From: Methanolinea sp. | Lineage (GTDB): Archaea > Halobacteriota > Methanomicrobia > Methanomicrobiales > Methanospirillaceae | DNA length: 64,000 nt | Direction: 5' to 3' | Assembly (NCBI GenBank): GCA_030055515.1 | Contig: JASFYI010000001.1 | Location: 682,001 to 746,000, forward strand | Shown: piece after piece, positions 358 through 46,510 of the stretch | How positions within the stretch are numbered: the stretch's first letter is position 1 | Layout of the letters: each line of letters opens with the position of its first letter | The notes under the pieces: generated by a model | Database searches by the model: none | The model's input: only the letters and a program-made list of their open reading frames with translations | What the model was told of the DNA's origin: nothing | Program-made: the position numbers and the translations under genes

Positions 358-406
358 AATGTTTATTAGATATTGAAAATAAATTGGTTTTTCATTTGCG
401 GTAACG

Positions 407-2814: not shown

Positions 2815-2820
2815 AAAAAA
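2815..2820 (-). terminator. Oligo-T terminator after ilvC
   Basis: A run of six T on the minus strand lies about 10 bases beyond the ilvC stop codon. This matches the simple oligo-T termination typical of archaea. Confidence 0.45.
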
Positions 2821-2829
2821 GATATTATT

Positions 2830-3831: not shown

Positions 3832-3865
3832 GGTTCCATCCCAGAACTATCGGTACCAGAGCACT

Positions 3866-3882
3866 TAAACTTAAATATTATA
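3866..3882. promoter_or_regulatory. AT-rich divergent promoter region for ilvC and mptA
   Basis: TTAAACTTAAATATTATAT lies between the two divergent genes. Read to the right it places a TATA box about 55 bases before the ATG at 3930. Read to the left it lies about 40 bases before the ilvC start. It therefore probably serves both genes. Confidence 0.55.
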
Positions 3883-3929
3883 TGGAAAAATTACATTCCA
3901 CACCAGACCTGGAGAGATGTCCTATTTCC

Positions 3930-6684: not shown

Positions 6685-6694
6685 GAGTCCCGGC

Positions 6695-8030: not shown

Positions 8031-8041
8031 GGTGAGAGAAA

Positions 8042-8920: not shown

Positions 8921-8933
8921 ACCTTTTTTTACA

Positions 8934-8957
8934 AGTAGGCGGATTCCCCCCTTTTTT
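8934..8957 (+). terminator. Oligo-T terminator after frhB
   Basis: Seven T at 8934-8940, fourteen bases after the frhB stop, are followed by six more T at 8952-8957. This is typical of archaeal intrinsic termination. Confidence 0.6.
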
Positions 8958-9052
8958 CGTTGCGCAATGACTGCAGGTTTTCCCGCAGCGATAGGAAGAC
9001 GTATATCCTCCGGGGTTCTTCTTATGTTCTACCACGAAGGTGAATCAGAGAT

Positions 9053-9697: not shown

Positions 9698-9863
9698 GGG
9701 GTGGAAGGACCGGTCTCCCCGGGATGGGGCTAGGCCACGGGTAGGGCCGTCCTCTTCCCCCGGATTCCTCCCTTTCATCGCTTTTTCTCTCCGGCCCCCG
9801 CGATTTTCCCATACCTTCATATGAACCGGTGGCTCAATTCTTACTCAAAGGAGCATAATCGAG

Positions 9864-10346
9864 ATGGCAGAGAGAGAGGTCTTCCAGGGAGTGCCGGGAA
9901 TGCTCCGGCCATTTCGGGACTTCATCGAGAAGAAGGGCTTGAAGAAGGGTGACCAGGTGGTGTACTACGGGTGCCCAGGGACGTGCACGCCGTTCGTCGA
10001 GCTCCTCGGATTCGCGGTCCGGAGCCTCGAGCTCGACCAGGTCTTCGTCCCCTACGTCGACGAGTCGAAGGCCCGGAAGATCGCCCTCGTCCCGGACGTC
10101 GGGATGCAGGTCTCCGGCGCTGCAGCCATCGCGGACCCCGCTGCCGTGGTCGTGATGGGCGGGCTCTCGATGCCCAACGTCCCGGTGACGCTCGGGCAGG
10201 TGGCCGGCGCCATCGGGAAGTACCCGTCGGCGCTGAAGATCGGGGTCTGCTTCATGAACATGTTCGAGAAGGCGGGCTGGACGAAGGAGATGAAGTTCGA
10301 CCTCCTGATCGACGCGACGATCGACCCGGTCACCGTCTGGAAGTGA
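9864..10346 (+). CDS. DUF2124 family protein
   Basis: A 160-residue soluble protein matching, from memory, the DUF2124 family found almost only in methanogens. Visible features are YYGCPGTCTPFVELL near residue 35, with two Cys, and a glycine-rich VVVMGGLSMPNVPV segment suggesting an alpha/beta nucleotide- or cofactor-binding fold. Function is not known. It has its own upstream region and does not overlap its neighbours. Confidence 0.82.
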   Translation: MAEREVFQGVPGMLRPFRDFIEKKGLKKGDQVVYYGCPGTCTPFVELLGFAVRSLELDQVFVPYVDESKARKIALVPDVGMQVSGAAAIADPAAVVVMGGLSMPNVPVTLGQVAGAIGKYPSALKIGVCFMNMFEKAGWTKEMKFDLLIDATIDPVTVWK

Positions 10347-10373
10347 GGGGGACGCTTCCCCCTCCTCCCCCCG

Positions 10374-10874
10374 TCACTTCGCCTCCCCCGTTTTCCCCGC
10401 GAACGATTCCACGAACCTCCCGAGCGCTTCGCTGACCGCCTCCCTGTCCTGCGCGCACACGCAGAAGACCATCGCGTCCCTGAACGTTCCCGAAAGTTCC
10501 CGCGGGCACGCGTGCGGGAGGTCGCACTTGTTCAGCAGCACCGCGAGGGGGACCTTCCGCTCAAGGAGGGCGGAATAGAGGTGGAGGGTGAACTCGTCGG
10601 GGGGGACGGAGGAATCGACGACGAGGAGGGCGGCATCCATCCCCCGGGCGATGATCTGGCGGACGAATGCGAACCGGTCCTGCCCGGGTGTGCCGAAGAG
10701 GTAGACCTGGTGCGTGCCGACCGAAACGCGCCCATAGTCGAGCGCAACCGTGGTGTCGCCGTCCTCCGTGTGCGCCTCGACGTGGCGGGAAGAAGGATCG
10801 AGCGTCTGGATCAGCGTGGATTTCCCCGCGTTGTACGCGCCGAAGACGACGACCTTGATCTTCCTGCCTTCCAC
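10374..10874 (-). CDS. Small Ras-like GTPase
   Basis: A predicted regulatory GTPase. The P-loop GAYNAGKST, the switch II region LFGTPGQDRF and the guanine-specificity motif NKCD are all present, in the order of the Arf/Rab/MglA-like superfamily. An in-frame start at 10982 gives 202 residues, but the first 36 are not family-like. A GTG at 10874, directly before EGRKIKVVVFG, is preferred (166 residues). No GAP or roadblock partner is beside it. It is convergent with the DUF2124 gene. The partner and process are unknown. Confidence 0.85.
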   Translation of the reverse strand: MEGRKIKVVVFGAYNAGKSTLIQTLDPSSRHVEAHTEDGDTTVALDYGRVSVGTHQVYLFGTPGQDRFAFVRQIIARGMDAALLVVDSSVPPDEFTLHLYSALLERKVPLAVLLNKCDLPHACPRELSGTFRDAMVFCVCAQDREAVSEALGRFVESFAGKTGEAK

Positions 10875-11032
10875 GGATAACCGGTTGACCCCCGATTCGT
10901 TTACCGCTTTCGGTATCTCACGGCGGGAGCGTGGTTTATCTGGTGCTCTCGCGGGCGCGGGGAGGTGCCCGCGGTCCCCCAACGAGGGAATGAAAGGGGG
11001 AAAAGTCCGTCTGCCGCTGCACCGCGGGATCC

Positions 11033-11045
11033 AAAAAAGGAAAAA
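11033..11045 (-). terminator. Oligo-T terminator after the rps12-rps7-aef2 operon
   Basis: Runs of five and six T on the minus strand follow the aEF-2 stop codon by about 10 bases. Confidence 0.55.
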
Positions 11046-11055
11046 CAGGTAATTT

Positions 11056-13248
11056 TCACGCGAGGTAGTCCGCGGGCGTCGGGATCTGTTCCTTCAGCCC
11101 CTTCCTCTTCCGGATTTTCGCAACGGTCTCCTTGAGCATGTTCGATGGAACGAGCTCGAACCCCGCGAACTCCGTGCTCCACATCGCCCGTCCCTCCGTC
11201 GCGGACCGGATGTCGCCGGCGAACCCGAAGAGCTCGGAGACCGGCGCCTTCCCGATGACTGTCACCGTGTCTCCCTCGCTCTGGATGTCGAGCACCTGCC
11301 CGCGCCGGCCCTGGATCTGGGCCGTGGCGTTCCCCATCTGCTCGGTCGGGACGGTTATCTGGATCTTCTGGACGGGTTCGAGGAGGGTGTCGCCTGCCAT
11401 CAGCATCGCTGCCTTGACCGCCGACCGGACGGCCGGGATGACCTGCGCGGGGCCGCGGTGGATCGCGTCCTCGTGGAGCTTCACGTCGACGAGACGGATC
11501 TTCAGGTTCTGGACCTTCTCGTCGGCGAGCGGGCCGCCGTCGAGCGCCTCGTGGATCCCCTCGATGATCAGCTCCATCGTCTCGTTCAGGTACTGGATAC
11601 CCTTCGTCATGTCGAGGAACATGTTGTACCCGTAGATGTCCCGGACATTCTTCGCCTCTTCCTTGTCCATCCCCGCCGCCATCAGGATGTCCCTGCGCTC
11701 GAGCGCCGTCTGGTTCATCGAGACCTTGCCCTCCCTTATGAGGTTGACAATCTCCTCGGGGAGGGGCTCGACCTCGATGTAGAACCTGTTGTGCCTGTTG
11801 GGGGACTTCCCTTCCACGGGACCTGCCTTCTGGGTCACGGTCTCCCTGTACACGACGATCGGCTCGGAGGTGACGATCTCGACCCCCTTGTCCCTCTTGA
11901 TGCGCCCCGTCACGATCTCGAGGTGGAGCTCCCCCATCCCCGAGATGAGGTGCTCGCCCGTCTCCTCGTTGATGGTGACCTGGAGGGTGGGGTCTTCCTT
12001 CGCGACCTGGCGGAGCACCTCGATCAGCTTGGGGAGGTCCTTCATGTTCTTGGCCTCCACGGCCACCGTCATGACGGGCTCGCTGTAGTGCTTGAGGGAC
12101 TCGAAGGGAACCATCTCCTGGAGCGTGGTCACGGTGGACCCGACGATCGCGTCCTTGAGGCCGGTCACGGCCGCGATGTTCCCTGCCACGATCTCCTCCA
12201 CCTCGACCCTCGTCGGCCCCATGAAGACGCCGACCTGCTGGAGGCGGTTGACCTTCTTTGCGGTCCCCATCACGTACATCTCGGTCCCCCGGCGGATCCT
12301 CCCGGAAAACAGCCTGCCCGTCGCGACCTCGCCGGCGTGGGGGTCGAACGAGATGTCCGTGATCATGAGGGTCGCCGGGCCGTTCGGGTCGCAGTTGAGC
12401 ATCGCCCTGCCCTCCGGCGACTCCGGGTCACCGTGCCATATCACCTTGATCCTGCGCTTCTGGGCCTCGAGGGGGTTGGGCAGGTGCTTGACGACCATGT
12501 CCAGCACGACGTCGCAGAGGGGGCTCCTCTTTGCGAGTTCCTTCATGTTCCCGCTGCGGCACTTCTCGAAGACGTCCTTGAACGACACGCCGCTCTTCTT
12601 CATGAAGGGGACCGAGACTGCCCAGTTGTAGAGTGCCGACCCGAACGCGACCGTTCCCTGCGCGGCGTCGAGCCGCCAGCCGGACTTGTAGGCCTCCTCG
12701 TTCATGCTCTTGATGAGCTTGTTGACCTTGTCGATCACCCGCCCGAGCCGGATCTGCATCTCCATCTCGTCGACCTTCAGCTCGTTGATGAGCCTGTCGA
12801 CCTTGTTGATGAAGAGGACGGGGCGGACACCCTCCTTGAGCGCCTGCCGGAGGACGGTCTCTGTCTGCGGCATGGGCCCCTCGACCGCGTCGACGAGGAC
12901 GACCGCGCCGTCCACCGCCCTCATGGCCCTCGTCACATCACCCCCGAAATCCACGTGGCCGGGGGTGTCGATCATGTTGATCAGGTATTCCTGCCCCTCG
13001 TACTCGTGGACCATCGAGACGTTGGACGCGTCGATCGTGATCCCGCGGGCCTGCTCCTCCTCGTCGGAATCCATGAAGAGCTGCTTGCCCGCGAGCTCCT
13101 CGGAGATGATCCCGGCACCCGCGAGGAGATTATCGGAGAGCGTGGTCTTGCCGTGGTCGATGTGGGCGACGATCCCGATGTTCCTGATGTGGGTCGGGTC
13201 GCTCATCAATTCTGCCATTTTCTCGATTGATTTTCTGCCTCGGGCCAT
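11056..13248 (-). CDS. fusA: Translation elongation factor aEF-2
   Basis: GTPase that drives ribosome translocation. It has 730 residues from the ATG at 13248 ([11 protein letters not shown]); an in-frame extension to 13299 is not family-like and overlaps the spacer after rps7. The G-domain motifs [17 protein letters not shown] and NKVDRL are clear. Near the C-terminus, DAIHRGPAQ contains the His that archaea modify to diphthamide. Third gene of the rps12-rps7-aef2 operon, the usual archaeal order, with a 31-base gap after rps7. Confidence 0.98.
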
Positions 13249-13279
13249 AAAACACCACAAAAAAGGGATTGAATCCTTT

Positions 13280-13861
13280 CTATCGGGCGGACTTTGCAAT
13301 CCGCTCGCGTTCTTCCTTCTTGCTCACGGAGTACGCCTTCGCGTCCCCCTTCGAGGCCGCGATCAGCTCGTCGGCGAGACACTGGGCGACCGGCTTTCGG
13401 CTCTTGTGCGCGGCCTTGTAGACGGCCTCGGCGATGAAGAAGAGGGCCGTATTGACGCGCCGGAGAGGGGCAGTATCCACTGACTTCGGGACGTTTATCC
13501 CCCCGTACTTCAGGCGGACCGTCTCCTCCCTCGGCCCGGCGTTGATGATGGCATCCACGAGGACCTGGACCGGGTTCCTCTTCGTCTTCTTGTGGATGAT
13601 CTCGAACGCCTCGCGGACGATGCGCGTGGCAAGCTGCTTGTTCCCCGTGTTCATCTCGGACTGCATCAGCCGGTTGATGAGGCGTTCCACGATGAGCATG
13701 TGTGCCTTGGCAAACTCCTGCCGCGTGAGCTTGCCGGTCGTGTGGGGGACGATCACGGGGGTGAGGCCGATGTACTTGACGAGGCTCGGGTCCGGTACCT
13801 GGACCTCCCCGAGGTCCCATTTGTTGAAGAGGAGGCGTGCGGGGGTCTCTGTCTCCGCCAT
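13280..13861 (-). CDS. rps7: Ribosomal protein uS7
   Basis: Small-subunit head protein that nucleates assembly of the 16S rRNA 3' domain. It has 193 residues, and the core [27 protein letters not shown] and the C-terminal [18 protein letters not shown] are characteristic. It begins 6 bases after the uS12 stop and precedes aEF-2 in the same operon. Confidence 0.97.
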
Positions 13862-13867
13862 CCCGCA

Positions 13868-14296
13868 TCACCTGCGCGGCTTCTCCTTCCGCCCGATGAC
13901 GAGCTCGCGGAGGGAGACGTTGTTGACCTTCGTCACGACGTATCTTACGCCCGGGATGTCCCCCATCGACCTCCCGAGCCTGCCACCGATGCCCTCGATC
14001 TCGACCTCGTCGTGCTCGTCGATGAAGTTGATCGCGCCGTCGCCGACCGCGAACGCCGTCACCTGGCGCCCGTTCTTGATCAGTTGCACCCTCACGCACT
14101 TCCGGATCGCGGAGTTCGGCTGCTTGGCCTCGACCCCGATCTTCTCGAGCACTATCCCGCGGGCCTGCGGTGCACCCTCGAGGGGATCCGCCTTGATGTT
14201 GACCCCGCCGTGGCTGCGCACGTACTTGGGGTCGCTCCACCGGAATTTCTTCGCGTCCTTGATGAGCTTCCTCGCTGCAAACTTGCCCTTACCCAT
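13868..14296 (-). CDS. rps12: Ribosomal protein uS12
   Basis: Decoding-centre protein of the small subunit, 142 residues, the archaeal/eukaryotic (S23) type. [19 protein letters not shown] and the [10 protein letters not shown] region are the conserved decoding-site loops. First gene of the operon, with a strong TATA box upstream at 14352-14363. Confidence 0.98.
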
Positions 14297-14351
14297 GAAA
14301 TACCCTCGTCAGTGTTCTCCTTGGAGAGAGTGGACGGTCATGTCCCCGTGT

Positions 14352-14363
14352 GGTATATATAAA
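14352..14363 (-). promoter_or_regulatory. TATA box of the rps12-rps7-aef2 operon
   Basis: TTTATATATACC on the minus strand is close to the methanogen TATA consensus. It predicts a transcript start near 14330 and a leader of about 35 bases before rps12. Confidence 0.75.
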
Positions 14364-14466
14364 CGCGCGGAGGCGATTTATACATTTGCACACGTCCACG
14401 ATTGCCTTATCCTGTTGGACCCCATTGCTAATAATATTATATCCCGTTCTGCCCAACATTCTCTGA

Positions 14467-14880
14467 ATGATCTTCCGCCTTTTCAAGGAAGTGCAGTTCG
14501 ACGCGAGCCACAGGCTCCTCCACGACAGGGGGAAGTGCAACCGCCTCCACGGGCACCGGTGGAAGGTCGAGGTCTGGATGGAGGGGATCCCGGGGGAGAG
14601 GAGCGGGATGGTCGCCGACTTCAACATGGTAAAGGAAGTCGTCTGCAGGTTCGACCACCAGATAATCCTCAACCGCGACGACCCCATGGTGGCCGCGGTC
14701 CGGGAGTTCCACCCCGTGATCACCACACAGGGCGAGCCGACGAGCGAGAACCTCGCTGCCCTCATCGCCGGGCTCCTGCGCGAGGAGTGCACGCGCCAGG
14801 GACTCGACGCCCGCATCACCCGCGTCAGGGTGTGGGAATCCCCCGCGTGCTACGCGGAAGTGACCTATGAGAGTGCATGA
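14467..14880 (+). CDS. queD: 6-carboxytetrahydropterin synthase (QueD/PTPS family)
   Basis: Cytoplasmic enzyme converting 7,8-dihydroneopterin triphosphate to 6-carboxytetrahydropterin for the deazaguanine preQ0. It has 137 residues. Zinc ligands His15, His28 and His30 and the catalytic Cys24 are in DASHRLL and GKCNRLHGH; a Glu in the C-terminal RVRVWESP completes the family pattern. It overlaps queE by 14 bases, and queC follows. In archaea the product goes to archaeosine in tRNA. A PTPS-like enzyme with another role is possible but the neighbours make QueD likely. Confidence 0.93.
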   Translation: MIFRLFKEVQFDASHRLLHDRGKCNRLHGHRWKVEVWMEGIPGERSGMVADFNMVKEVVCRFDHQIILNRDDPMVAAVREFHPVITTQGEPTSENLAALIAGLLREECTRQGLDARITRVRVWESPACYAEVTYESA

Positions 14881-15475
14881 AATCTTCAGGAGCCTCCAGG
14901 GTGAGGGGATACGCCAGGGGATGCCCTGCACGTTCGTCAGGTTCGCGGGCTGCAACCTCGATTGCGCCTGGTGCGACACGCGGCCTGCGCGCACGGGGGG
15001 CGAAGAGATGGATGGGGACGAGGTGTTGTCCCACGTGAGGAGACTCGGGGGACGGTACGTCTGCATCACGGGCGGCGAACCCCTCCTCCAGGGTCCTCCC
15101 CTCCTCTCCCTCATCAGGGACCTCTCCGATGCCGGGTACACAATCGACATCGAGACGAACGGTACCCTCGACTTCTCGCCGTTCCAGCCCTATGCCTCGA
15201 TCTGCATGGACGTGAAGTGCCCGTCTTCCGGCGAGGAGAGCGACCTCTCGCTGGTCCCGCGGCTCACGGACGCCGATGCACTCAAGTTCGTCGTCAGGGA
15301 CAGGGAGGACTGCGAGTACGCCGCGGACGTGATGAGGAGGTACTCGCCGCGCGGCCACGTCTTCTTCTCGCCCGTGTGGGGGACAGATCCCCGCGGGATC
15401 GCGAGGTTCCTCATCGACGAGGACCTCCCCGCGCGCCTCCAGCTCCAGATCCACAAGGTCATCGGGGTGATGTAG
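14867..15475 (+). CDS. queE: 7-carboxy-7-deazaguanine synthase, radical SAM
   Basis: Radical SAM enzyme that ring-contracts 6-carboxytetrahydropterin to 7-carboxy-7-deazaguanine. It has 202 residues. The cluster motif is C29-x3-C33-x2-C36 (CNLDCAWC), preceded by [10 protein letters not shown], the hallmark of Que[11 protein letters not shown] is the SAM-binding GGE motif. Overlaps queD upstream and lies 4 bases before queC. Confidence 0.96.
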
Positions 15476-15479
15476 GGCG

Positions 15480-16151
15480 ATGCGGGCGGTGTGCCTCCTC
15501 TCCGGCGGGATGGACTCGTCCACGCTCGCCTACGTCGCGCGTGACATGGGGTACCGCATCCTCGCGCTCCATGTCAATTACGGCCAGAGGACCGAGGTAC
15601 GGGAACGGGCCGCGGCGAGGACGATCGCCCGCCTCGTGGGCGCGGAGGAGTTCCTCGAGGTGGACATCTCTTACCTGAAGGTCTTTGGCGCAAGCAGCCT
15701 CACGGACCACGCGATCCCGGTCGAGCCGTACAGCCCCGAGAGGGAATGCATCCCCAACACGTACGTCCCGTTCCGGAACGCAAACCTCCTCTCCATCGCG
15801 ACGAGCTACGCGGAGTCGCGCGGCGCGGACGCGATCTTCATCGGCGTCCAGTCGCAGGACTACAGCGGGTACCCGGACTGCAGGCCGGAGTTCATCGAGG
15901 CGTTCCGGAAGGTGATCGCGACGGGGACGCGGAGCGGGGACCGGATCAGGCTGGTCACGCCGTTCATTTCCATGTCGAAGAGGGAGATCCTCTCGCTCGG
16001 CCTCTCGCTCGGCGTCCCGTACGAGCACACGTGGTCGTGCTATCAGGACAACGAAATCGCGTGCGGCGTGTGCGGCGCGTGCCACTTCCGGCGCGCTGCG
16101 TTCGCGGCGCTCGGGGTCCGGGATCCCCTCCCCTACAGGAGCGGCGAATGA
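15480..16151 (+). CDS. queC: 7-cyano-7-deazaguanine synthase
   Basis: ATP-dependent enzyme turning 7-carboxy-7-deazaguanine into preQ0, the precursor of archaeosine. It has 223 residues. The N-terminal PP-loop is [20 protein letters not shown] and the C-terminal zinc-type Cys set ([18 protein letters not shown]) are typical. Last of the queD-queE-queC run. Its stop overlaps the start of the NUDIX gene in ATGA. No archaeosine transglycosylase lies in the window. Confidence 0.96.
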
Positions 16152-16657
16152 CAGAGCTGTACAGGGGAAAGAGGCTCTCCGTCGAGAGGAAAGAGTACGT
16201 CCTCCCCGGAGGGAGGAGGGTCGAGAGGGTCTCCGTCCACCCGGGGAACGCGGTCGCGGTCCTCCCGTTCTTCGGGGACGGGTCGTGCTGCCTCATCAGG
16301 CAGTACCGGTTCGTCGTCGGGGAGTACATCCTCGAGGCCCCCGCGGGGACGCTCGAGCCGGGGGAAGACCCCCTCGACGCCGCCCGCAGGGAGCTCGTCG
16401 AGGAGACGGGGTACGATGCCGCTGAATTCGTCCCGCGGGGGTGGATCTACACGACGCCGGGGTTCACGGACGAGGTGATATACCTGTATGAGGCCCGCGG
16501 TCTCCGTCCCGCCCCGAAGCGGGAGAAGGACGAGGACGAGGTGATCGAGGTCGTGAAGGTACGGGCAGGGGACCTCCCCGCGATGGTCAGGGATGGCCGC
16601 ATCAACGACGCAAAGACGATCTGCCTCGTCTTCCGGTGCGCGGCGGGCGGGGCATGA
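16148..16657 (+). CDS. NUDIX hydrolase, ADP-ribose pyrophosphatase type
   Basis: A 169-residue hydrolase of nucleoside-diphosphate compounds. The full NUDIX box is present (G-x5-E-x7-REL-x-EE-x-G within [23 protein letters not shown]). The preceding [19 protein letters not shown] is typical of ADP-ribose pyrophosphatases. The ATG overlaps the queC stop, and the stop overlaps the start of the next gene, so it is translationally coupled. Substrate is inferred from family only. Confidence 0.9.
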
Positions 16658-17544
16658 GGGGCGCTGCTCCCTGCATCCTCCCCGCCGTCATCCTCGCGGC
16701 AGGGATCCTCGCGGCGGGGTGCGTGGGGGAGATCCCGCCCCGCGGCGGCAACTTTTCCGTCGACGAATCCGGCAGGCTCTCGCTCCGGTGCCCCCCCTGC
16801 ACGGCGAACGCGAGCGTGATCTCGGTCTCCGGGAACGTGACCCTCCTGCGGGTGGTCTTCTCGTCGGGGCAGGGAGACGTCTACGCAGTCGCCGCGGTAC
16901 CCCCTGCCCCGAGGGCAGGGTTCGTCCTCTCGCCGGGCGCGGGGGTGAGGAAGGAAGGGTACGTGGAGATCGCCCGCTCCTACGCGGAGAACGGCTACGC
17001 CTTCCTCGTCCTCGACGTGCGGGGCCACGGCGGGGAGACCCCCGGGTACCCCCTCGACCTCGCGCGCGATTTCGGGAAATTCAGGTCCGGGGAGTGGCCC
17101 CAGTACTACCTCTCCATCTGCGACGTGATTGCCGCCCGCAGGTTCCTGCAGGAGACGTACGGTATCCCCGTCCACGCGGTGGGGGAGAGCAACGGGGGGA
17201 GGTACGCCGCGATCGCCGCGGAGGTGGATCCCGCGTTCGCGGGGTACATCGGCATCTCGACGTCCGGGTTCTCCCGGGCGGGGGACAGGTACACGGGCGA
17301 CGCCCGCCGGTTCCTCCTCTCCGTCGACCCCGTCACCCTCGCGGGTTCCCTCTCCGGCCGGCCGTCGTGGATCTTCCACGCGCCCGAGGACCCCGTCATC
17401 CCCTTCGACGAGGGGCGCGCGCTCTTCGATGCCCTCCCCGAGCCGAAGGCGTTCTTCCCCTTCGAGGGGACCCACGGGTCAAACGAGCTGGTGCACCGGA
17501 CGATCCTCTCGGAATGTGCGCAAATTTATGGGACCGGGGGTTGA
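16654..17544 (+). CDS. Alpha/beta hydrolase lipoprotein
   Basis: Exported hydrolase of 296 residues. The signal segment ends in LAAGC (lipobox Cys about 23). The catalytic triad of the alpha/beta fold is readable: nucleophile Ser in GESNGG, Asp in APEDPVIPF and His in EGTHGSNEL. DVRGHGGETPG resembles S9 peptidase or dienelactone-hydrolase-like enzymes. The start at 16654 overlaps the NUDIX stop; an in-frame ATG at 16636 is less likely. The substrate, whether peptide, ester or polysaccharide, is unknown. Confidence 0.83.
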   Translation: MRGAAPCILPAVILAAGILAAGCVGEIPPRGGNFSVDESGRLSLRCPPCTANASVISVSGNVTLLRVVFSSGQGDVYAVAAVPPAPRAGFVLSPGAGVRKEGYVEIARSYAENGYAFLVLDVRGHGGETPGYPLDLARDFGKFRSGEWPQYYLSICDVIAARRFLQETYGIPVHAVGESNGGRYAAIAAEVDPAFAGYIGISTSGFSRAGDRYTGDARRFLLSVDPVTLAGSLSGRPSWIFHAPEDPVIPFDEGRALFDALPEPKAFFPFEGTHGSNELVHRTILSECAQIYGTGG

Positions 17545-17578
17545 AATGTATTGAAGTTTGGGCGACGGGGAGAGGGCG

Positions 17579-18853
17579 ATGACCGAGGTACAGGAGATGG
17601 ACGAGGGCCGGAGGAAGTACGAGTTCCGCAGGACTCTCGAGAGACTCCAGTCCAAGCAGGGGAGCGGGACAGAGCTGATATCCCTCTACATCCCGCCTGA
17701 CAAGCAGATCCACGACGTCGTCGCCCAGCTCCGCGACGAGTTCGGGCAGTGCGCGAACATCAAGAGCAAGCAGACCCGGACGAACGTCCAGAGCGCGATA
17801 TCGTCCATCCTCTCCCGCCTCAAGTACTACAAGACGCCGCCGCCGCACGGGATGGCGATCTTCTGCGGCACGGTCCAGCTGCAGGGGGACAAGACGGACC
17901 TCGAGTGCACGATCATCGAGCCACCAGAACCCCTCAACCTCTACATGTACCGGTGCAGCTCGGTCTTCGAGCTGGAACCGCTCCTCCAGATGCTCGAGGA
18001 AAAGAACGTCTACGGGCTCCTCGTCCTCGACCGCCGCGAGGCGTACTGGGGGTTCCTCCGGGGCAACCGGATCGAGCCCGTCGGGGGAGTCACGTCCACG
18101 GTCCCCGGCAAGCAGAGGAAGGGGGGCCAGTCGAGCGTCAGGTTCCAGAGACTCCGGGAGATCGCCATCCACGAGTTCTACACGAAGATAGGGGAGCGGG
18201 CGAGCGCAACCTTCCTCGCCGAGAAGGACTTCTACGAGCGGTTCAAGGGCGTCCTGATCGGCGGCCCGAGCCCGACGAAGGAGGAGTTCGAGGCGGGGCA
18301 CTACCTCCACCACGAGATCCAGAAGCGTATCATCGGCCTCTTCGACGTCGCCTACACGAACGAGAGCGGGCTCGCGGAGCTCGTGGAGGCCGCGCGCGAC
18401 GCACTCAAGGGGGTCGAGGTGATCAAGGAGAAGGAGCTCATGAACCGGTTCCTGCGGGAGCTCGTGAAGGAGGACGGGCTCGCCGCGTACGGGGAGGAGA
18501 GCGTGCGCAGGAACCTCGCGATGGGCTCTGTCGACACGCTCCTCCTCTCCGCCTCCCTCCGGAAGTCGCGCGTGAAGGTCCGCTGCCAGGCGTGCGGCCA
18601 CTCCGGGGAGCGGACCGTCCAGCTCGAGCCGGGAAAGACGATCGCCGATATCGTCTCGGCCCAGACTTGCAAGTCGTGCGGCGGGCCGCTCGTCGTCGAG
18701 GAAGAGACGGACATCATCGAGGAGCTGACGAGGCTCGCGGACCAGACGAGCACGCGGGTCGAGATCATCTCCGACGACTTCGAGGAAGGGGCGATGCTCG
18801 CCTCGGCATTCGGCGGGATCGCCGCGATTCTACGGTACAGGACGGGGTACTAG
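17579..18853 (+). CDS. prf1: Peptide chain release factor aRF1
   Basis: Reads all three stop codons and releases the finished chain. It has 424 residues from the ATG at 17579, which follows GGAGAGGG; an in-frame start at 17558 adds seven residues. NIKS (stop-codon recognition, in ANIKSKQTR) and the catalytic GGQ (in RKGGQSSVRF) are both intact. The C-terminal domain carries a CxxC-type zinc pair (CQACG, CKSCG). Followed by argS after one base. Confidence 0.97.
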   Translation: MTEVQEMDEGRRKYEFRRTLERLQSKQGSGTELISLYIPPDKQIHDVVAQLRDEFGQCANIKSKQTRTNVQSAISSILSRLKYYKTPPPHGMAIFCGTVQLQGDKTDLECTIIEPPEPLNLYMYRCSSVFELEPLLQMLEEKNVYGLLVLDRREAYWGFLRGNRIEPVGGVTSTVPGKQRKGGQSSVRFQRLREIAIHEFYTKIGERASATFLAEKDFYERFKGVLIGGPSPTKEEFEAGHYLHHEIQKRIIGLFDVAYTNESGLAELVEAARDALKGVEVIKEKELMNRFLRELVKEDGLAAYGEESVRRNLAMGSVDTLLLSASLRKSRVKVRCQACGHSGERTVQLEPGKTIADIVSAQTCKSCGGPLVVEEETDIIEELTRLADQTSTRVEIISDDFEEGAMLASAFGGIAAILRYRTGY

Positions 18854-26772: not shown

Positions 26773-27549
26773 GTGGATGTGAAAAAGGTACTCCTTGTCT
26801 CCATCCTCCTGTCGGCGATCGTCGTGGTCGCCGTTGCGGGGAACGCGGGCGGACCCGGCGGGAAGGCGGGGCAGCAGGTCCAGAAACAGGCTCAGGAACA
26901 GGCTCAGGTACAGGATAGGCCGCAGGAACAGTCCCAACAACAGAACATTGACAAGGTCCAGAGCCAATCAAAAGCGCAGTTGAACGCCTCGGGGGACCGG
27001 ATCCGGGAGGAAGAACGTCTCCGGAACCAGACGAGGGCATTGAGGGGCGCCCAGCTCCACAAGCAGATTCAGGATCGCAAGCAGGAACAGGATCGCCTGC
27101 ACGCGACCTTGCCTCCGGAGCAGCAACGCGTCCACTCGCGTTACAGCAACGTGAGTGCCTTTGTCCACACTCTTCTCGACGAGGGACAGGCCCGGGAGAT
27201 GCTGGGCGGGATAGGTCCGCAGGTCTCGGCCTTTGCCCGCGAATTCAACAATTCCCTCCAGGCCCAGGTCAGGGCAGAAGAGCGGATCGAGACGCGGAAT
27301 ATGTTCGTCCGCTTCCTCGCCGGGGGAGACGAGGAGGCTGCGAGGTTGCTCGCGCAGGAGGCTGTCCGCAACCAGGAACGGATCCAGCAGGCACGCGAGC
27401 TCATTGCACAGTGCGAGGACTGCGATCCCGAGGTCCGTGAGATACTCCAGGAGCAGTTCCGGGAGATGGAGCAGCAGCAGGCCCGGATCCAGCAGCTTGC
27501 CCAGAGGGAGAGGCAAGACAAGGGGATTTTCGGCTGGTTGTGGAAATAA
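26773..27549 (+). CDS. Exported Gln/Glu-rich coiled-coil protein
   Basis: A 258-residue protein with an N-terminal hydrophobic segment (KKVLLVSILLSAIVVVAVA) that is a signal peptide or anchor. A Gln-rich repeat (K/E-Q-A-Q-E-Q pattern, residues 30-60) and long charged helices to the end follow. There is one Cys pair (CEDC). Start is GTG at 26773, eight bases after GGGAGG. The C-terminus ends GIFGWLWK. I do not recognise a named family; similar secreted coiled-coil proteins occur in Methanomicrobiales. It is isolated between the DUF4405-like gene and the tRNA-associated element. Confidence 0.72.
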   Translation: MDVKKVLLVSILLSAIVVVAVAGNAGGPGGKAGQQVQKQAQEQAQVQDRPQEQSQQQNIDKVQSQSKAQLNASGDRIREEERLRNQTRALRGAQLHKQIQDRKQEQDRLHATLPPEQQRVHSRYSNVSAFVHTLLDEGQAREMLGGIGPQVSAFAREFNNSLQAQVRAEERIETRNMFVRFLAGGDEEAARLLAQEAVRNQERIQQARELIAQCEDCDPEVREILQEQFREMEQQQARIQQLAQRERQDKGIFGWLWK

Positions 27550-27719
27550 TCCACAAATGCTCCTCGTTTTCCTCCAAAAATCTCGCGTGCACGATTTGGT
27601 GTTTCCCGCGACCTGTCGTCCCCATGAGCCTTTCGGGAGACCCGACCGTGCACGCGGTGGGGAGAATGTCTCGGAATACCCTAAACCGCAAGTCCCCCGC
27701 ATTTCCACTGGCGCCCCCC

Positions 27720-27903
27720 TTCGCGCTCCCCGCAACGCCGCCTCATTTCTCGCGCAAAGCAGCGTCACGAATGACCAGCGATTCCTAAATGCTCTCATCA
27801 CGAGTGTCAGTAGCACGATTCAGCCTGCACACTTCACGCTTTCTTCAGAAGAAAGTGGGCTCGAGGAGATTCGAACTCCTGACCTCCGCTGTGTGAAGGC
27901 GAG
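27720..27903. repeat. attL-like direct repeat with 3' half of tRNA-Val
   Basis: 27778-27903 is a close direct repeat of 30373-30496, with weaker similarity back to about 27720. The last 48 bases (27856-27903) equal the 3' half of tRNA-Val(CAC), from the discriminator base through the anticodon loop, and then similarity stops. A perfect palindrome, CTTTCTTC-A-GAAGAAAG (27839-27855), sits at the tRNA 3' end. This is the structure left when an element integrates at a tRNA 3' end and restores the gene on the other side. Confidence 0.82.
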
Positions 27904-27922
27904 GCGAGAAGGAAATCAGGCA

Positions 27923-28399
27923 ATGAATACCGAGGAATTCGGGAAAGAAGCCGCAGGTGAAGAAATCCCAGCAGAAGCAGAGGAAGGAGCACAGGAGATA
28001 AGCGAGACGCAGGACATGCACCAGCTCTTCCGGATACATGAAAGGCGGTTTACCGAGTGGCTAAGGAAGAGAGTATCGGAGCAGACCGTGAAGGATTACC
28101 TCGCTGCGATCAGGAAGGTACTCAGGAGCAGGAGGATAACCAGGCCTCTGGACCTCTCCGGTATCGAAGACGATAAGCAGATGCGAGAGTTGAGGAATTT
28201 CCTGAACTACCTCTCGGATGCGGATATCGACTCCCCCTTAGGTTACCCGATTGCGAAGTGGAAGAGCAACCTCAGGATCAAACCCGCAGGGGTGGTTGAG
28301 ATTTATCCGACCGACGAGGAGATCGTCGAGGCGTATCGCCGGTGTCCTGCTGAGTGCAGGTGCATCGAGAAGAGCTACGATAACCTGATTGTCGAATGA
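27923..28399 (+). pseudogene. Tyrosine integrase, N-terminal (core-binding) fragment
   Basis: A 158-residue remnant. After an acidic 30-residue start it shows a SAM-like core-binding domain (HERRFTEWLRKRVSEQTVKDYLAAIRKV and LRNFLNYLSDADI), as in archaeal tyrosine recombinases. It stops just after EEIVEAYRRCPAEC, where the catalytic domain with the R-H-R-Y residues should begin; the last 15 residues look out of family. Its reading frame is open back through the tRNA fragment, so it could also be the distal piece of an SSV-type integrase split by integration. It lies 20 bases from the left att repeat. Confidence 0.72.
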
Positions 28400-28466
28400 C
28401 CACAGATACACAAAGATTGATGGCATACCAGACCAATCACCTGCATAATCCCCGTGAGGATACACT

Positions 28467-28658
28467 ATGACCAGCATCGAAACTGACGTCAAGGAGATCA
28501 AAGAAAGCATCAGAGCGCTCGCCGAAAAGATCGAGACTCTCCTTCACGAGAGGGAGACCCTTGCAATGATGAAGCTCTCCGAGCGGTCACTCTCTGCCTT
28601 TCTGGAGGAGGAGCCTGATCTCTACACTGTCAGGGATATCAGGGTTGTGTACCGATGA
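28467..28658 (+). CDS. Small antitoxin-like protein
   Basis: A 63-residue acidic, mostly helical protein. Its first half is a short coiled coil (VKEIKESIRALAEKIETLL) and its C-terminal half could wrap a toxin. It overlaps the MazF/PemK-type gene by 4 bases (ATGA), the usual antitoxin-toxin arrangement. There is no clear DNA-binding fold. The antitoxin role is inferred from position. Confidence 0.65.
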   Translation: MTSIETDVKEIKESIRALAEKIETLLHERETLAMMKLSERSLSAFLEEEPDLYTVRDIRVVYR

Positions 28659-28984
28659 AGGGGAAGATCGTTCTGATACCGTTTCCCTTCACCGATTTCA
28701 CCGCGACCAAACTTCGACCAGCGCTCGTCCTCCACGAGGGGGATCGCGATGTTGTTGTCGCCTTTATTTCGTCAAAAACTCACGAGAGAACTGGTTTATC
28801 CGGCATTATAATAAACTCCTCTCACGCAGGTTTTTCGAGAACAGGCCTCAAGGTCGATTCTGTGATCAGATTGGATAAGATTGCAACGATTCTGAAAGAC
28901 CTGATAATCGGTGAGATCGGAGAACTGGATGATGACCTTAAAGCAGAAGTCAATGCAAAAGTCGTTGCACTTTTCAGACTCTGA
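28655..28984 (+). CDS. MazF/PemK-like toxin
   Basis: A 109-residue protein beginning KGKIVLIPFPFTDFTATKLRPALVL, the conserved first strands of PemK/MazF-type endoribonucleases, including the Pro-rich loop and the Arg-Pro-Ala motif. VVAFISSK follows as the usual next strand. In the family these cut mRNA and are held in check by the upstream partner. The DNA is less GC-rich than the core genome and lies within the tRNA-Val element. RNase activity is not proven. Confidence 0.8.
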   Translation: MKGKIVLIPFPFTDFTATKLRPALVLHEGDRDVVVAFISSKTHERTGLSGIIINSSHAGFSRTGLKVDSVIRLDKIATILKDLIIGEIGELDDDLKAEVNAKVVALFRL

Positions 28985-29059
28985 GCATGATAGAGGCGGA
29001 TCACAATATCCATTCGAGTGAAGTGCCTCCTGCTATGGCACCAACCCAGCCTCATACAA

Positions 29060-30217
29060 TCGACGATTTCGAAAAACCAGTGACATCGAAAGAAAGCAAA
29101 CGCTCTCTCGAAATTTGAGAACTCAAAATGGGAGAATTCCCTAAAGATTTCACCAAATTATCGGGATTTTCTTCCGATTTTTAAGAAGTCTTCGATAGCT
29201 CCCGCTACCAAGCTCCTTTTCGTTTGAGAGTACTCAACTGGACCAGATTGAACAAAAACGATGCAAACACGTTTTTGACATGCACCCTCTCCACAGTCGT
29301 CACGAGAACGTGATCGTAGTGGAATGTCCGTTTGATTACGGCGAAGACCCGGACAATAACTCTCCGTGTCTTGCTGATCGCACGGTTCCTGCGCTTCTCC
29401 TTGATAGTCAGCGGACAACCCCGGACAGCCCTTTTCATGGTTTTATCGATCGAGGCACGGGGTTTCACTCCGAAATATCCCCTATCGCGGTAAACTGTCT
29501 CCCCGGGCATCGAGAGGTCCACCTGGCTGTCATGGACAGATGCAGTCGTCGTTTCAATGCGACGGACCAGGTGATTCTCCTTGTCAATGAGCACGTGGAG
29601 TTTGTATCCAAAATATGGTGTATCTCCCCGTTTCGTCCACGTCCCGTCCTTGTTTCTCCGGGTTTTCCCCTCTTCGCGCGGTGATGTCTCTGAAGACTGT
29701 TTCCCCGGGTCCGCGGTGATGATCGTTGCATCCTGGATGACTCCACGAGTGATTGCAAGACCCTTGGCCGCGATCTGTGCCTGGAAATTATCCCAGATTT
29801 CCTGGTATTTGCCTGATTCCTTGAGACGTTCCCGGAAGAACCAGACCGTCGAGAAATCAGGAACTCCGTGGTGGAACCCGATGAATTTCCTGAATGAGAT
29901 GCGATCCGTCACCTGGCGTTCCAGTTCGGGGTCTGAGAAGTTGTAGAGTTTCTGGAGCACGAGGAGTTTGACCATCACGACAGGATCGATATTTGGCCTC
30001 CCGCCTTTGCCTTTCTTGTTTTTGTAGAGGTCTTCAAGTATCGGGCGAAACTGGTCCCAGTCAATTATCGATTCAAATTCTGAAAGGCGGTCCCCAACCT
30101 TTTGTACCCTCTTGTATGCTTCGTGCAGCCCGAATGTTTCGAAGGTCATTGGGGAGTTTTTGATCGGCTGAGATATAGCTTTTGTGGTTTGAAGAGGGGT
30201 TTTTCGAAAACCTCGAT
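29060..30217 (-). mobile_element. IS5-type insertion sequence
   Basis: One intact transposase lies between imperfect inverted ends: ATCGACGATTTCGAAAAACC at 29060-29079 and, inverted at 30198-30217, ATCGAGGTTTTCGAAAAACC. The left end also occurs as a fragment at 223-295. On the right it abuts a 47-bp fragment of the other IS. Target duplications were not seen. Confidence 0.7.
29205..30149 (-). CDS. IS5-family DDE transposase
   Basis: A full-length transposase of 314 residues. The N-terminal helical domain has GGRPNIDPVVMVKLLVLQKLYNFSD and VPDFSTVWFFRERL, typical of IS5-group elements. The DDE residues are the first Asp in IQDATII, the second in VYRDRGYFG and the Glu in IKEKRRNRAISKTRRVIVRVFAVIKR. 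Apart from lower GC it shows no damage, so this copy may be active. Confidence 0.93.
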   Translation of the reverse strand: MTFETFGLHEAYKRVQKVGDRLSEFESIIDWDQFRPILEDLYKNKKGKGGRPNIDPVVMVKLLVLQKLYNFSDPELERQVTDRISFRKFIGFHHGVPDFSTVWFFRERLKESGKYQEIWDNFQAQIAAKGLAITRGVIQDATIITADPGKQSSETSPREEGKTRRNKDGTWTKRGDTPYFGYKLHVLIDKENHLVRRIETTTASVHDSQVDLSMPGETVYRDRGYFGVKPRASIDKTMKRAVRGCPLTIKEKRRNRAISKTRRVIVRVFAVIKRTFHYDHVLVTTVERVHVKNVFASFLFNLVQLSTLKRKGAW

Positions 30218-30218
30218 A

Positions 30219-30265
30219 GATTCAATTACAACGGTTGACTGAGTGGTGATTTGGGGAGGGGCTAA
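30219..30265. repeat. Inverted fragment of the left end of the IS at 1493-2747
   Basis: 47 bases match the reverse complement of 1493-1540 with two differences, including the terminal CTAA and the codons for the transposase C-terminus (IQLQRL-EW). It directly follows the right end of the IS5-type element. Confidence 0.75.
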
Positions 30266-30372
30266 TTGAGTAATCACCATCCAATTTAATACCACTTCCA
30301 CCTCCTCCCTGCCACCTTCACGCTCTCCGCCGCATCGCGTGAGTTCCTGCGCAGCAGCGTCGTGACTGCCCC

Positions 30373-30496
30373 GCGTTTCCTAAATGCTCTCATCATGAAT
30401 GTCAATAGCACGATTCAGCCTGCACACTTCACGCTTTCTTCAGAAGAAGGTGGGCTCGAGGAGATTCGAACTCCTGACCTCCGCCGTGTGAAGGCG
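30373..30496. repeat. attR-like direct repeat overlapping intact tRNA-Val
   Basis: This is the partner of 27778-27903: about 75 bases of tRNA 3' flank plus the 3' half of tRNA-Val, with scattered mismatches that show the two copies have been drifting for some time. Confidence 0.8.
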
Positions 30497-30524
30497 ACGT
30501 CATAGCCAGCTAGACCACGAGCCC
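30451..30524 (-). tRNA. tRNA-Val(CAC)
   Basis: The 74-base cloverleaf is complete: acceptor GGGCTCG/CGAGCCC, anticodon stem TCGCC/GGCGG with loop TTCACAC, T arm AGGAG-TTCGAAT-CTCCT, and discriminator A. CCA is not encoded. It lies 3 bases after tRNA-Gly on the same strand. Its 3' half is duplicated at 27856-27903. Confidence 0.97.
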
Positions 30525-42937: not shown

Positions 42938-43921
42938 TCAGAACATCACTTTCCGCAGGAGCCGGGCGATTCTCGCCGTGCTCGCCCGCGGCACGAGTCC
43001 GGGGGGGCAGGGACAGGCCTCGTCGCTCCCGAGTATCTCGAGGACGGCGCGGACCGCCTCCCCGAGCGACGGGCCGTAACCCCCCTCGAGGACGAGGGCG
43101 GGCGGGCAGGACGCGGCTTCCCGCAGGAGCGAGCAGAGGACGGCGAAGTCGCGGGGATGGAGCCTCATCCCACCCTTCGGGTCGTCGTGGAGGGGATCGA
43201 ACCCCGCCGAGACGATGAGCGCGTCCGGCTCGAAGTGCGCGAGTGCCTCGCAGAACACCGTCGAGAAGACATGGTGGTAATCGGCGATCCCCGCGCCGGC
43301 CGGGAGCGGGGCGTTCAGGGTGAACCCCCTGCCCCTCCCCTCCCCCACCTCGTCGATCCAGCCTGTCCACGGGAATATGTCTGCCTGGTGGATGGAACAG
43401 AAGAGGACCCGGTCCGTCCCGTAGAATATCTTCTGTGTGCCGTTCCCGTGGTGGAGGTCCCAGTCGACGATCGCGACGCGCTCCACCCGTTCGAGGGCCC
43501 ACGCCGCCGCGACCGCGGCGTTATTGAAGAGGCAGTACCCCATCGCCCGGCACGGCTCGGCGTGGTGCCCCGGCGGGCGGACGAGGGCAAAGCACGGTTC
43601 CCCACCGAGGGCACGCCCGACCGCCCCGATCGCCGCGCCGGCCGCGAGTGTCGCGACGCGGAAGGAATCCTCCGTCACGTACGTGTCGAGGTCGAGGTAC
43701 CTCCTGCCGCCGTAGCTGCAGAGCTCCTCGAGCATGCGGATGTGCCTCTCCTCGTGGACCCGCGCGAGGTCTTCGAACGACGCGGGTTGCGGAGGGTAAA
43801 CCCTCACGTGCGGGGGCACGGCGGCGAGTGCATCCTGCAGCCTGCGGGCGTTCTCCTCGTGCAACCCGAGGTCGTGCCGCGCGAATTCACCCCCGGTGAT
43901 GACCGAGCACCGCGCCCTCAT
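42938..43921 (-). CDS. Histone deacetylase-like (AcuC/arginase fold) deacetylase
   Basis: Zinc-dependent amide hydrolase, 327 residues. Catalytic and metal residues are in RPPGHHAEPCRAMGYCLFNNAA, IVDWDLHHGNGTQ and SAGFDPLHDDPKGGM, complete for the HDAC class. LEGGYG closes the site. It could act on acetylated lysine (for instance Alba or histones), polyamines or sugars. The start directly abuts the AglB stop, so it is probably co-transcribed with aglB. Confidence 0.92.
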   Translation of the reverse strand: MRARCSVITGGEFARHDLGLHEENARRLQDALAAVPPHVRVYPPQPASFEDLARVHEERHIRMLEELCSYGGRRYLDLDTYVTEDSFRVATLAAGAAIGAVGRALGGEPCFALVRPPGHHAEPCRAMGYCLFNNAAVAAAWALERVERVAIVDWDLHHGNGTQKIFYGTDRVLFCSIHQADIFPWTGWIDEVGEGRGRGFTLNAPLPAGAGIADYHHVFSTVFCEALAHFEPDALIVSAGFDPLHDDPKGGMRLHPRDFAVLCSLLREAASCPPALVLEGGYGPSLGEAVRAVLEILGSDEACPCPPGLVPRASTARIARLLRKVMF

Positions 43922-46510
43922 TCAGCCGACCGGAAGGCCTCCCAGTACCGCCTCCTCGGGGACGTCGATCTCCCTCCCCGTGCCCGCGATGCGGTACTTC
44001 CCCTTCGCCCTCACCTCGTAGGGCGACCCGGACGTGGCGTATGGGACGACGAAGAGGCCGTCCCGGCTCTCCTGCCGGTACGTGAACTCCCTCCCGGTAT
44101 TCGTCACGATGTCGACCTCTATGGTGCCCTCCCCCGCGATCCGCGCCCCGGGGACGAACTCGAAGACCTTGACGTACTTCAGGTCGGGTGCGCTCTCGCC
44201 CTCACGAGGGGACAAGACGTTCGTCGGTGACTCGTGGACGAGCCGGTAGTGCCGCAGCGCGGGGACGTCCTCGACAGGGGAGAGGATGTGCGGGGAGAGG
44301 ACGAGTGCGCGTCTGCCGGCAGGAGCGTTCCTGTTGAAGGCAGCGGCTGCCTCCCTCGCGGCCGCCGCGTCCATCACCTGTGCCCCCCGCACGACCGGGT
44401 ACGCGGCCCGCCCGTCCTCCACCTCGACGTAGTAGACCTTCCCGGCCGAAACGTGCGAGCCGTCGAAATTGTGGAGGCGGGAGACCATCGTCGCGAAGTA
44501 AGGTGCCTCGTACAGCTCGACCGCGGTGTACGTCCCTGCCCCCTCCTGCGCGGGTGCGAACACGTACTCCGTGTAGGGCGATATCCCCGCGCTCACGTTG
44601 TACCACGTGGCCATCGCCCAGAACTTCCCGGTATCCATCTCGATGTCGGTGACGACGTACCGGACACCGCGGTTCCGCGCGATCGCCGCGTTCCTCTCCT
44701 CGTCGGCCGTCATGAAGAAGGCGGCCGCGCCGTTCTCCCCCTCCACGCCCGACTGGAAGGGGTTTGCGTTCGGGATGCGCTTTGCGATGAACGTGATCAG
44801 GTGGCCGTAGTCCCACCACGACATCACCCCGTAGGACTCGGGGGGGTACCTGAAGGTCTCTTTCTCGTAGATGCGGAGGTAGTCGACGCCGGGGTCCGGT
44901 GTGTGCGTCCCCATCCACTCGAGCGCCTCCCGCCAGTCGGGGTTCAGGCGGATGGCACCGGAGGTTGCCACCCGCAGCTCGTACGTGACCTGAGAATACA
45001 CAAAGACCGAGAACGCGACGAGGACGAGCGCGAGGACACCGATCCTGAGGGGATCGACCGCCGCGTGCGCACCCCCGGGTTTTGGCTTCTTCTTCGCCTT
45101 CTGCTTCGAATCCACCCTCTCGCGGTCTTGTTCTCCACCCTTCGTCATGCCAAGGCGGGACGCGGCCAGTCTCTGGACGTCCCTCCACCCCCACTCCACG
45201 GCCCAGGCCGCAAGGAGCCCCGAGAGGAGGGCGAGGGGCGCGGCGAAGTAGTACTCGTACCTGATGTGCTGCCACGTCGCGAATGTGAGGGTGACTGTCC
45301 AGACGAGGACGAAGAGGAGCTCAGCCCTCTTCTCATTCCAGACGTACTTGCAGAGGACACCGAATCCCCCTGCCATCAGGAGGAGGCCGACGCCGAAGTT
45401 CTCCCACGCCTCTCCCACCGTCCACGACCGCGCCTCCTGGATGGTCAGGTAGAAGGGGTTCTGGCCGAAGAACTGGTCGATGCTCGCGACGAACGTGGAA
45501 AAAAGGCCGGGGAGTGCGACCGCGAAGACCCCGAGTGTCGCCGCGAAGAGGCACCCGAGGCCCGCGAGGTAGTACGCGTCGCCCTTCCCCCGCGAGAACC
45601 TCCCGAGGATGTAGAGGACCGCCGTGCCCGCGACGACGAGGAGGTACGCGAGGGGATGGCCGAGGGTGTAGTAATCGAACTGGAAACCTTCCCTGTGGAT
45701 TCCGAGGAAAACGAAGCTCGCCGCCGCGATCCCGAACGTCACCGCGTTGAGGAGGAGGATCCCTTCGCCCCTCTCCCTCCTGAAGAATCCCCACACGAGC
45801 AAGAAGAACGTCGTGACGGCGACGATGAACGCGAAGAGGACCATAGTCGGCATCACGAGGAGGCCAAGGACGTACGTGGTGCCGCAGAGGACGGAGAGGA
45901 GAAGTGGAGTGCGGAGCGTCTCCCGGCGCGAGAAGTCGACCGGGTTCTCCCGGAGGGCCGAGAGCGCCCACGCGTACGAGAAGACGAAGAGCGTGCTGAA
46001 CAGGACCTCGGCGACGTGGTGGTCGAGGTACCCGTAGAGCGACCGGAAGAAGAACTGGCCGCTCACCACCGATACCGCGAGTGCCGAGAAGAGTCCCGCG
46101 AGCGTCCCGTGCAGTCTCCTCCCGAGGAGGAACATGAGGGGAACCATCAGCCCGGCCATGACGGGCGGCACGGCCAGCGAGACCGCGATTATCTCGGGCC
46201 TCGTGGTCGCGCCGGCCAGGAGGCAGAGGGCAGAGCAGATCCAGATGAAGAGGGGACCCCAGTGGATGACCTGCCCGGTGGGGTACAGGGTCATCGCCTC
46301 AAACCACGAGTATGCCGGGAAATTGTGGTTCATCTGTTCGATCTGGCGGAGGTTGTACATCGGGTCGTCGCTCCCGACGAGGTTGAGGATGTCGGTCGTG
46401 CCCGCGGCCGCCGAGGGGAGCATCCGGACCCACACGGAGAAGGCAGTCATCGCCGCGAGGAGGAGGATGACGATGTACTTCCTGTATCGCGTCAAACCGG
46501 AAAATTCCAT
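43922..46510 (-). CDS. aglB: Oligosaccharyltransferase AglB (STT3 family)
   Basis: Membrane enzyme transferring a lipid-linked glycan to Asn in N-x-S/T sequons outside the cell. It has 862 residues: about 13 membrane helices in the first 450, then a soluble domain. Catalytic motifs are GSDDPMYNLRQIEQ in the first external loop (acidic metal pair), GYLDHHVAEVLF, and WWDYG near residue 563 in MSWWDYGHLITF. A Lys-rich cytoplasmic loop separates membrane and soluble parts. It lies next to glycosyltransferases and UDP-sugar genes. Transcribed from the 134-base gap upstream. Confidence 0.96.
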   Translation of the reverse strand: MEFSGLTRYRKYIVILLLAAMTAFSVWVRMLPSAAAGTTDILNLVGSDDPMYNLRQIEQMNHNFPAYSWFEAMTLYPTGQVIHWGPLFIWICSALCLLAGATTRPEIIAVSLAVPPVMAGLMVPLMFLLGRRLHGTLAGLFSALAVSVVSGQFFFRSLYGYLDHHVAEVLFSTLFVFSYAWALSALRENPVDFSRRETLRTPLLLSVLCGTTYVLGLLVMPTMVLFAFIVAVTTFFLLVWGFFRRERGEGILLLNAVTFGIAAASFVFLGIHREGFQFDYYTLGHPLAYLLVVAGTAVLYILGRFSRGKGDAYYLAGLGCLFAATLGVFAVALPGLFSTFVASIDQFFGQNPFYLTIQEARSWTVGEAWENFGVGLLLMAGGFGVLCKYVWNEKRAELLFVLVWTVTLTFATWQHIRYEYYFAAPLALLSGLLAAWAVEWGWRDVQRLAASRLGMTKGGEQDRERVDSKQKAKKKPKPGGAHAAVDPLRIGVLALVLVAFSVFVYSQVTYELRVATSGAIRLNPDWREALEWMGTHTPDPGVDYLRIYEKETFRYPPESYGVMSWWDYGHLITFIAKRIPNANPFQSGVEGENGAAAFFMTADEERNAAIARNRGVRYVVTDIEMDTGKFWAMATWYNVSAGISPYTEYVFAPAQEGAGTYTAVELYEAPYFATMVSRLHNFDGSHVSAGKVYYVEVEDGRAAYPVVRGAQVMDAAAAREAAAAFNRNAPAGRRALVLSPHILSPVEDVPALRHYRLVHESPTNVLSPREGESAPDLKYVKVFEFVPGARIAGEGTIEVDIVTNTGREFTYRQESRDGLFVVPYATSGSPYEVRAKGKYRIAGTGREIDVPEEAVLGGLPVG

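Follow-up and report, generated by a model that had tools for sequence, protein, structure and literature searches.

A probable fossil of an integrative element with a suicidal-type integrase in a tRNA-Val gene of Methanolinea sp.

A locus in the 64,000-nucleotide stretch of Methanolinea sp. DNA analyzed here (hereafter the window) is, with a probability of about 80%, the fossil of an integrative element, termed element B, that carried a suicidal (SSV-type, pT26-2-like) tyrosine recombinase, that was presumably preceded by an older element A, and that later received a toxin-antitoxin cassette and an IS5 insertion. The single integrase gene of circular element B would have contained the att site, which copies the 3' part of tRNA-Val, with a ribbon-helix-helix-like domain on its N-terminal side and the core-binding and catalytic domains on the other. 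Recombination with the chromosomal tRNA-Val would have rebuilt the tRNA at one end and, as judged by comparison with relatives, split the gene into int(N), at 30290-30448, and int(C), from 27903 onward. The tRNA may by then have borne the right end of the related element A, in which case the arrival of B would have rejoined int(N) of A to int(C) of B. A PemK/MazF cassette would subsequently have replaced the catalytic part of int(C), and an IS5 element would have landed near int(N); the junctions of both events are visible, and their order and cause are what we propose. Element B is no longer able to move itself. The features of the locus are as follows (window positions, strand in parentheses).

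27711-27853 (+): left int(N)-like copy, ascribed to the putative older element A; DNA homology to 30304-30448, 2-nt indel near 27756
27854-27902 (-): attL, 3' part of tRNA-Val from tRNA position 28 to the 3' end; one anticodon-stem mismatch
27903-28366 (+): int(C) of element B, core-binding domain and first catalytic-domain residues; homology to relatives, PHROG, and profile search
28351-29014 (+): toxin-antitoxin cassette; counterpart with 84% identity elsewhere in the congener G029
28467-28658 (+): small ORF of 63 amino acids, probable antitoxin; ATGA overlap with the toxin start, same toxin partner in G029
28655-28984 (+): PemK/MazF-type toxin of 109 amino acids; PF02452, E 1.3e-12
29060-30217 (-): IS5-family insertion sequence, ends approximate; imperfect terminal inverted repeats
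29205-30149 (-): IS5-family transposase; NF033581, 242 bits, cutoff 140
30290-30448 (+): int(N) of element B at the right end, with a ribbon-helix-helix-like domain (match over 30308-30439); profile and frame
30449-30497 (-): attR, within the intact tRNA-Val; repeat alignment
30449-30524 (-): intact tRNA-Val(CAC), the integration target; ARAGORN and Rfam

The locus is bounded by a direct repeat, the copies of which (27711-27902 and 30304-30497) lie 2.6 kb apart and were 87% identical over about 188 bp in a search of the own genome (E 1.5e-59). The first-pass annotation, made from the sequence without database searches, had reported the 3' half of tRNA-Val with about 75 bases of flank as directly repeated and had proposed an alignment of 27778-27903 with 30373-30496. 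The repeat and its homology were confirmed, but it extends farther than these limits, consisting of the 3' part of the tRNA and about 145 bp of flank. The intact tRNA-Val(CAC) was placed by ARAGORN and Rfam at the right side only, as had been noted, and the left copy ends at tRNA position 28; no third tRNA fragment was found left of 27711. The segment from 28.0 to 30.4 kb has a GC content of 47 to 53%, versus 64% for the window. Integration into a tRNA with its 3' part as att, by which suicidal integrases are recognized, is what the window displays.

The comparison with congeners supports the proposed tRNA-targeted, site-specific integration. The tRNA-Val and the neighboring tRNA-Gly are kept across the genus, and nine congeners (L035 to L043) have a single intact tRNA-Val at the locus with no convincing second fragment, in line with the empty site that had been expected in relatives; the exception is one weak 27-nt match in L040. 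At the two tightest empty sites, homology to the neighboring gene stops 322 and 390 bp from the tRNA, compared to 4.7 kb in the window. That the 3' part of the tRNA occurs in two copies would also be expected if tRNA-Val had been duplicated ancestrally with no element ever involved. We reject this explanation, which has a negligible probability, because of the empty sites in the congeners, where the second copy is absent, and because of the low GC content of the insert; furthermore, an integrase domain adjoins the tRNA fragment. Three other tRNA observations were made. (i) In G023 (L071 8748-8749), the tRNA-Gly/tRNA-Val pair is fused over a two-N gap and most of both genes are gone; this junction is an assembly scar and not biology. 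(ii) In G026, of the same genus (L072 7447-9268), a further tRNA 3' fragment lies 1.7 kb beyond tRNA-Val(GAC), the two enclosing a long Mur-ligase-type-like gene; this is another tRNA-Val insertion in the genus, and no integrase was found in it. (iii) tRNA-Val 3' fragments are present in the other Methanomicrobiales G113 (L070 8613-12236) and G115 (L069 10039-10090), with no adjoining integrase like that of the window, and are possibly older fossils.

At the left end, int(C) directly follows attL. Its ORF of 158 amino acids covers 27923-28399, with an in-frame ATG at 27923, and its frame stays open backwards through attL. The fragment matches PHROG 5127 "integrase" (E 9.4e-7), and ten further genomes of the class encode relatives of it, with E values down to 9.9e-34. 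The integrase homology, the lack of which the first-pass annotation had named as fatal to its proposal, is thus present, and a core-binding domain adjoins the left repeat as it had stated. A single-sequence search with this fragment (P0004) gave no match in genome contigs or viral contigs, a second scan of the genome contigs returned solely the query's own record, and searches of the viral contigs with one relative and with the alignment found no element carrying such an integrase. The full-length relatives carry the domain PF16795 (Phage_integr_3), with conserved residues that fit R..KxxR..Y. This catalytic domain is deleted in the window after its first residues: integrase homology ends at about 28366, just within PF16795, and no catalytic remnant was detected in the window when its six frames were searched by profile without filtering, in agreement with the loss suspected earlier; none was found left of 27711 either. 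With the catalytic domain missing, the presumed membership of the window integrase in PF16795 rests on homologs that share at best 44% sequence identity with the fragment. PF16795 marks the SSV, pTN3, and pT26-2 families, which are suicidal integrases with the att site within their own gene (Badel et al. 2021, PMC8371274, main text).

PF16795 was found in 18 of 232 genomes of the class, adjoining tRNA-Val, tRNA-Ala, and tRNA-Thr. Two-ended integrated elements, 12 in number with the window included, were located in tRNA-Val (CAC, TAC, and GAC), tRNA-Ala (GGC and CGC), and tRNA-Thr (GGT). In the elements read in detail, the int(C) frame extends upstream into the tRNA fragment of attL; several of them contain no ATG between att and the core-binding domain. 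At the intact tRNA, an int(N) in the frame of int(C) was identified in 8 of the 11 two-ended relatives (window not counted); the open int(N), with the int(C) frame carried to attR, measures 90 to 142 amino acids, att included, in 8 of the 11 and 69 amino acids in the window. As to the remaining relatives, L064 and L094 possess an int(N) that is out of frame or stopped, and no int(N) was found in L104; these exceptions would require decay after integration. Unsplit genes were also encountered. A single ORF of G178 (L063) encodes a ribbon-helix-helix-like N terminus, an att-like stretch, and the integrase, and in G215 int(N), an att-like stretch, and int(C) adjoin each other within a complete chromosome, the N-terminal part corresponding to that which lies 5.3 kb from int(C) in G108. 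The G215 gene (G215:C1, about 43750-44810; L093) is of the suicidal type, with a diverged, tRNA-Ala-like att stretch and a frameshifted N-terminal part, and no matching tRNA was present within about 40 to 55 kb.

Two further observations concern the relatives. (i) The element L105 (G195:C5, oriented 285-18016) spans 17.7 kb, sits in tRNA-Val(CAC), and has its PF16795 integrase split. It carries a packaging-type ATPase (phrog_2666, E 4.7e-24), and at least some of these elements therefore look like Methanomicrobiales proviruses. (ii) The distantly related integrases of L096 (G199) and L105 (G195) have a near-identical C-terminal tail, GxxNLIAGKNKKxMDxxxLDRMLRxGxxHAxIIKxLPGANKTKIAAYVKEHPELKRK, which has the look of a helix-turn-helix and whose presence in both suggests an exchange of modules between elements.

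To examine the right flank, an int(N) profile was built from the int(N) of eight relatives, the window being left out. Among all frames of the window it gave one significant match, at 30290-30502 (E 1.4e-4, 17.9 bits), in the int(C) frame. The right int(N) is open into the tRNA in this frame and has no upstream in-frame start codon; the modest profile score and the lack of its own start codon count against the split-gene reading. The same profile matched the N termini of the pGE2, pTN3, and pT26-2 integrases, and not that of SSV6. A Pfam search of int(N) named no family firmly. In the AlphaFold model of the G178 protein, whose confidence is low to moderate, the expected strand is followed by two helices; the N terminus would be consistent with a ribbon-helix-helix unit, a fold that is suggested by the model. 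Foldseek placed the catalytic domain of this protein nearest to the SSV1 integrase, and a profile search of PDB sequences agreed. The window clustered, without strong support, with integrases of the Methanomicrobiales G230, G195, G200, G178, and G117 when a tree was built from the core-binding region.

In the window, int(C) next to attL and int(N) next to attR share a reading frame that passes through the tRNA sequence. Alternatively, the integrase could have been a conventional, non-split enzyme starting from ATG 27923, in which case the int(N) matches would be incidental, as would the open frame across the tRNA fragment. The ATG is preceded by a purine-rich stretch, and frames antisense to tRNAs are often open. 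This explanation is nevertheless very improbable in view of the following evidence. (i) The frames are coherent in 8 of 11 relatives as well as in the window. (ii) Several relatives lack an ATG from att to the core-binding domain. (iii) The N-terminal part is contained in the unsplit genes of G178 and G215. (iv) The profile match at 30290-30502 does not depend on the frame argument. (v) According to the main text of the review, an in-frame start is often present in int(C) of pTN3-type suicidal integrases (PMC8371274). The possibility of an SSV-type split integrase, which had been raised from the open frame through the tRNA fragment, is thus upheld by the comparison with PF16795 relatives, their frames, and the unsplit genes. 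A tRNA "flank" next to such an element may hide an integrase half.

The supposed flank of 75 bases is in fact int(N) coding sequence, about 145 bp long and present twice: the left flank is identified as int(N) because it is homologous to the right int(N). It lies outside attL, where a simple integration leaves plain chromosomal flank, and the existence of two copies therefore makes more than one integration likely. The outer part of the left copy is broken by the 2-nt indel, and a contiguous frame (27215-28396) spans its inner part, att, and int(C) of B. This frameshifted copy would most simply derive from an earlier element at the same tRNA, in which case the left junction would be a re-fused chimera of int(N) of A, att, and int(C) of B. 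The two copies have diverged unevenly. Identity is about 95% in the inner zone, which comprises the tRNA part and the adjoining 75 bp of flank, and drops to about 67% in the outer 69 bp; the outer zone is nevertheless homologous, its score having been reached by 0 of 2,000 shuffles. Flank mismatches amount to 22 of 69 sites in the outer zone versus 5 of 75 in the inner zone (Fisher p = 1e-4). The near identity of the inner zone and the presence of a single int(C) would fit a single kind of element, present as a dimer or as two tandem copies, in which the left int(N)-att-int(C) is an ordinary inner junction and the outer copy was deleted. Uniform decay of such copies does not predict the excess of outer differences, which favors two related elements, although gene conversion could mimic this pattern; we regard the dimer as possible but rather unlikely.

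We lean slightly toward two related suicidal elements having entered tRNA-Val in turn. Each superintegration would automatically rejoin the resident int(N) with the newcomer int(C) across their common att site and so remake an unsplit, chimeric gene, of which 27711-28399 would be the fossil. Element A is deduced from one 143-bp copy, and no attL and no other gene of it were found. Elements integrated in tandem at a single site have been documented in archaea, and the mosaic evolution of int(N) and int(C) has been explained by inversion between two integrated elements (PMC8371274, main text). Superintegration would lead to the same mosaic outcome in one step and, if true, would represent a simpler route to mosaic integrases and to the revival of "dead" elements than the inversion model of the literature. 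With its double int(N), the locus offers a testable case of how a second element arriving at an occupied site could rebuild self-destroying integrases in chimeric form. The window also has two genes between a TPR gene and the fossil (P0007-P0005, 26344-27549), one for a small membrane protein and one for a secreted, glutamine-rich coiled-coil protein; the congeners examined lack both at this position. Their assignment as cargo of element A was considered and found unsupported, with a near-chromosomal GC content and homologs elsewhere in other genomes.

The MazF/PemK-type pair that had been recognized initially is present: the toxin scores above the PF02452 cutoff, the antitoxin gene, assigned by position only, overlaps it upstream, and both genes are intact. 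The suggestion that this pair explains the survival of the remnant is weak. The congener G029 carries the same cassette at an unrelated locus, with a toxin that is 80% identical and no tRNA in the stretch examined, and the left edge of the homology block in the window falls at the point of integrase truncation, with TGAGTGCAGG common to the junction. Because the same block occurs elsewhere in G029 and its edge coincides with the truncation, the cassette probably took the place of the catalytic domain and was not original cargo. The intactness of both genes and the MazF-like gene next to the pTN3 integrase would agree with the pair being original cargo of element B and the reason why the remnant was kept; given the G029 locus and the position of the left edge, this is unlikely. 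The IS5-type insertion was likewise borne out, by a transposase above the curated cutoff and by terminal inverted repeats. Further copies and fragments of the transposase are found elsewhere in the genome, and no target-site duplication was seen for this element.

A number of known systems resemble the locus. (i) The SSV1-type integrase of Sulfolobus spindle-shaped viruses is the founding case of a gene split by integration, and its catalytic domain, of solved structure, has the nearest fold to the G178 relative. The SSV type is more distant (25% identity), and SSV6 is not matched by the int(N) profile. (ii) The integrase of pTN3 (Thermococcus nautili) is suicidal, its N terminus matches the int(N) profile, and a MazF-like gene adjoins it; however, the identity is 23%, and the MazF-like gene is upstream of the integrase there and downstream in the window. 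(iii) The nearest named homolog of the G195 relative is the integrase of Archaeoglobus profundus pleomorphic provirus 1 (38% identity, 87% coverage), which is a complete pleolipovirus-like provirus, whereas the window has no structural genes. (iv) pT26-2 (Thermococcus sp. 26/2) and pGE2 (Pyrococcus abyssi) encode PF16795-type integrases with 31% and 27% identity to the G195 relative and with an N-terminal domain related to int(N) of the window. Midway along the protein is an att peptide derived from the tRNA and read in the same type of frame (GGIRTRDLRLR in pT26-2 and LEEIRTPDLR in the window). The hosts of these plasmids are Thermococcales, and the window copy differs in being split and truncated, with its int(N) end doubled. 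No pT26-2 core genes beyond the integrase were found among the ORFs of 27711-30524, and we do not assign the locus to this plasmid family. As sources of suicidal integrases, the main text of the review (PMC8371274) names Thermococcales, Archaeoglobales, Sulfolobales, and Methanosarcinales and never Methanomicrobiales, and our literature searches turned up no such integrase from that order. We claim no priority. Our data indicate that Methanomicrobiales are among the archaea in which suicidal integrases of the pT26-2/SSV kind operate.
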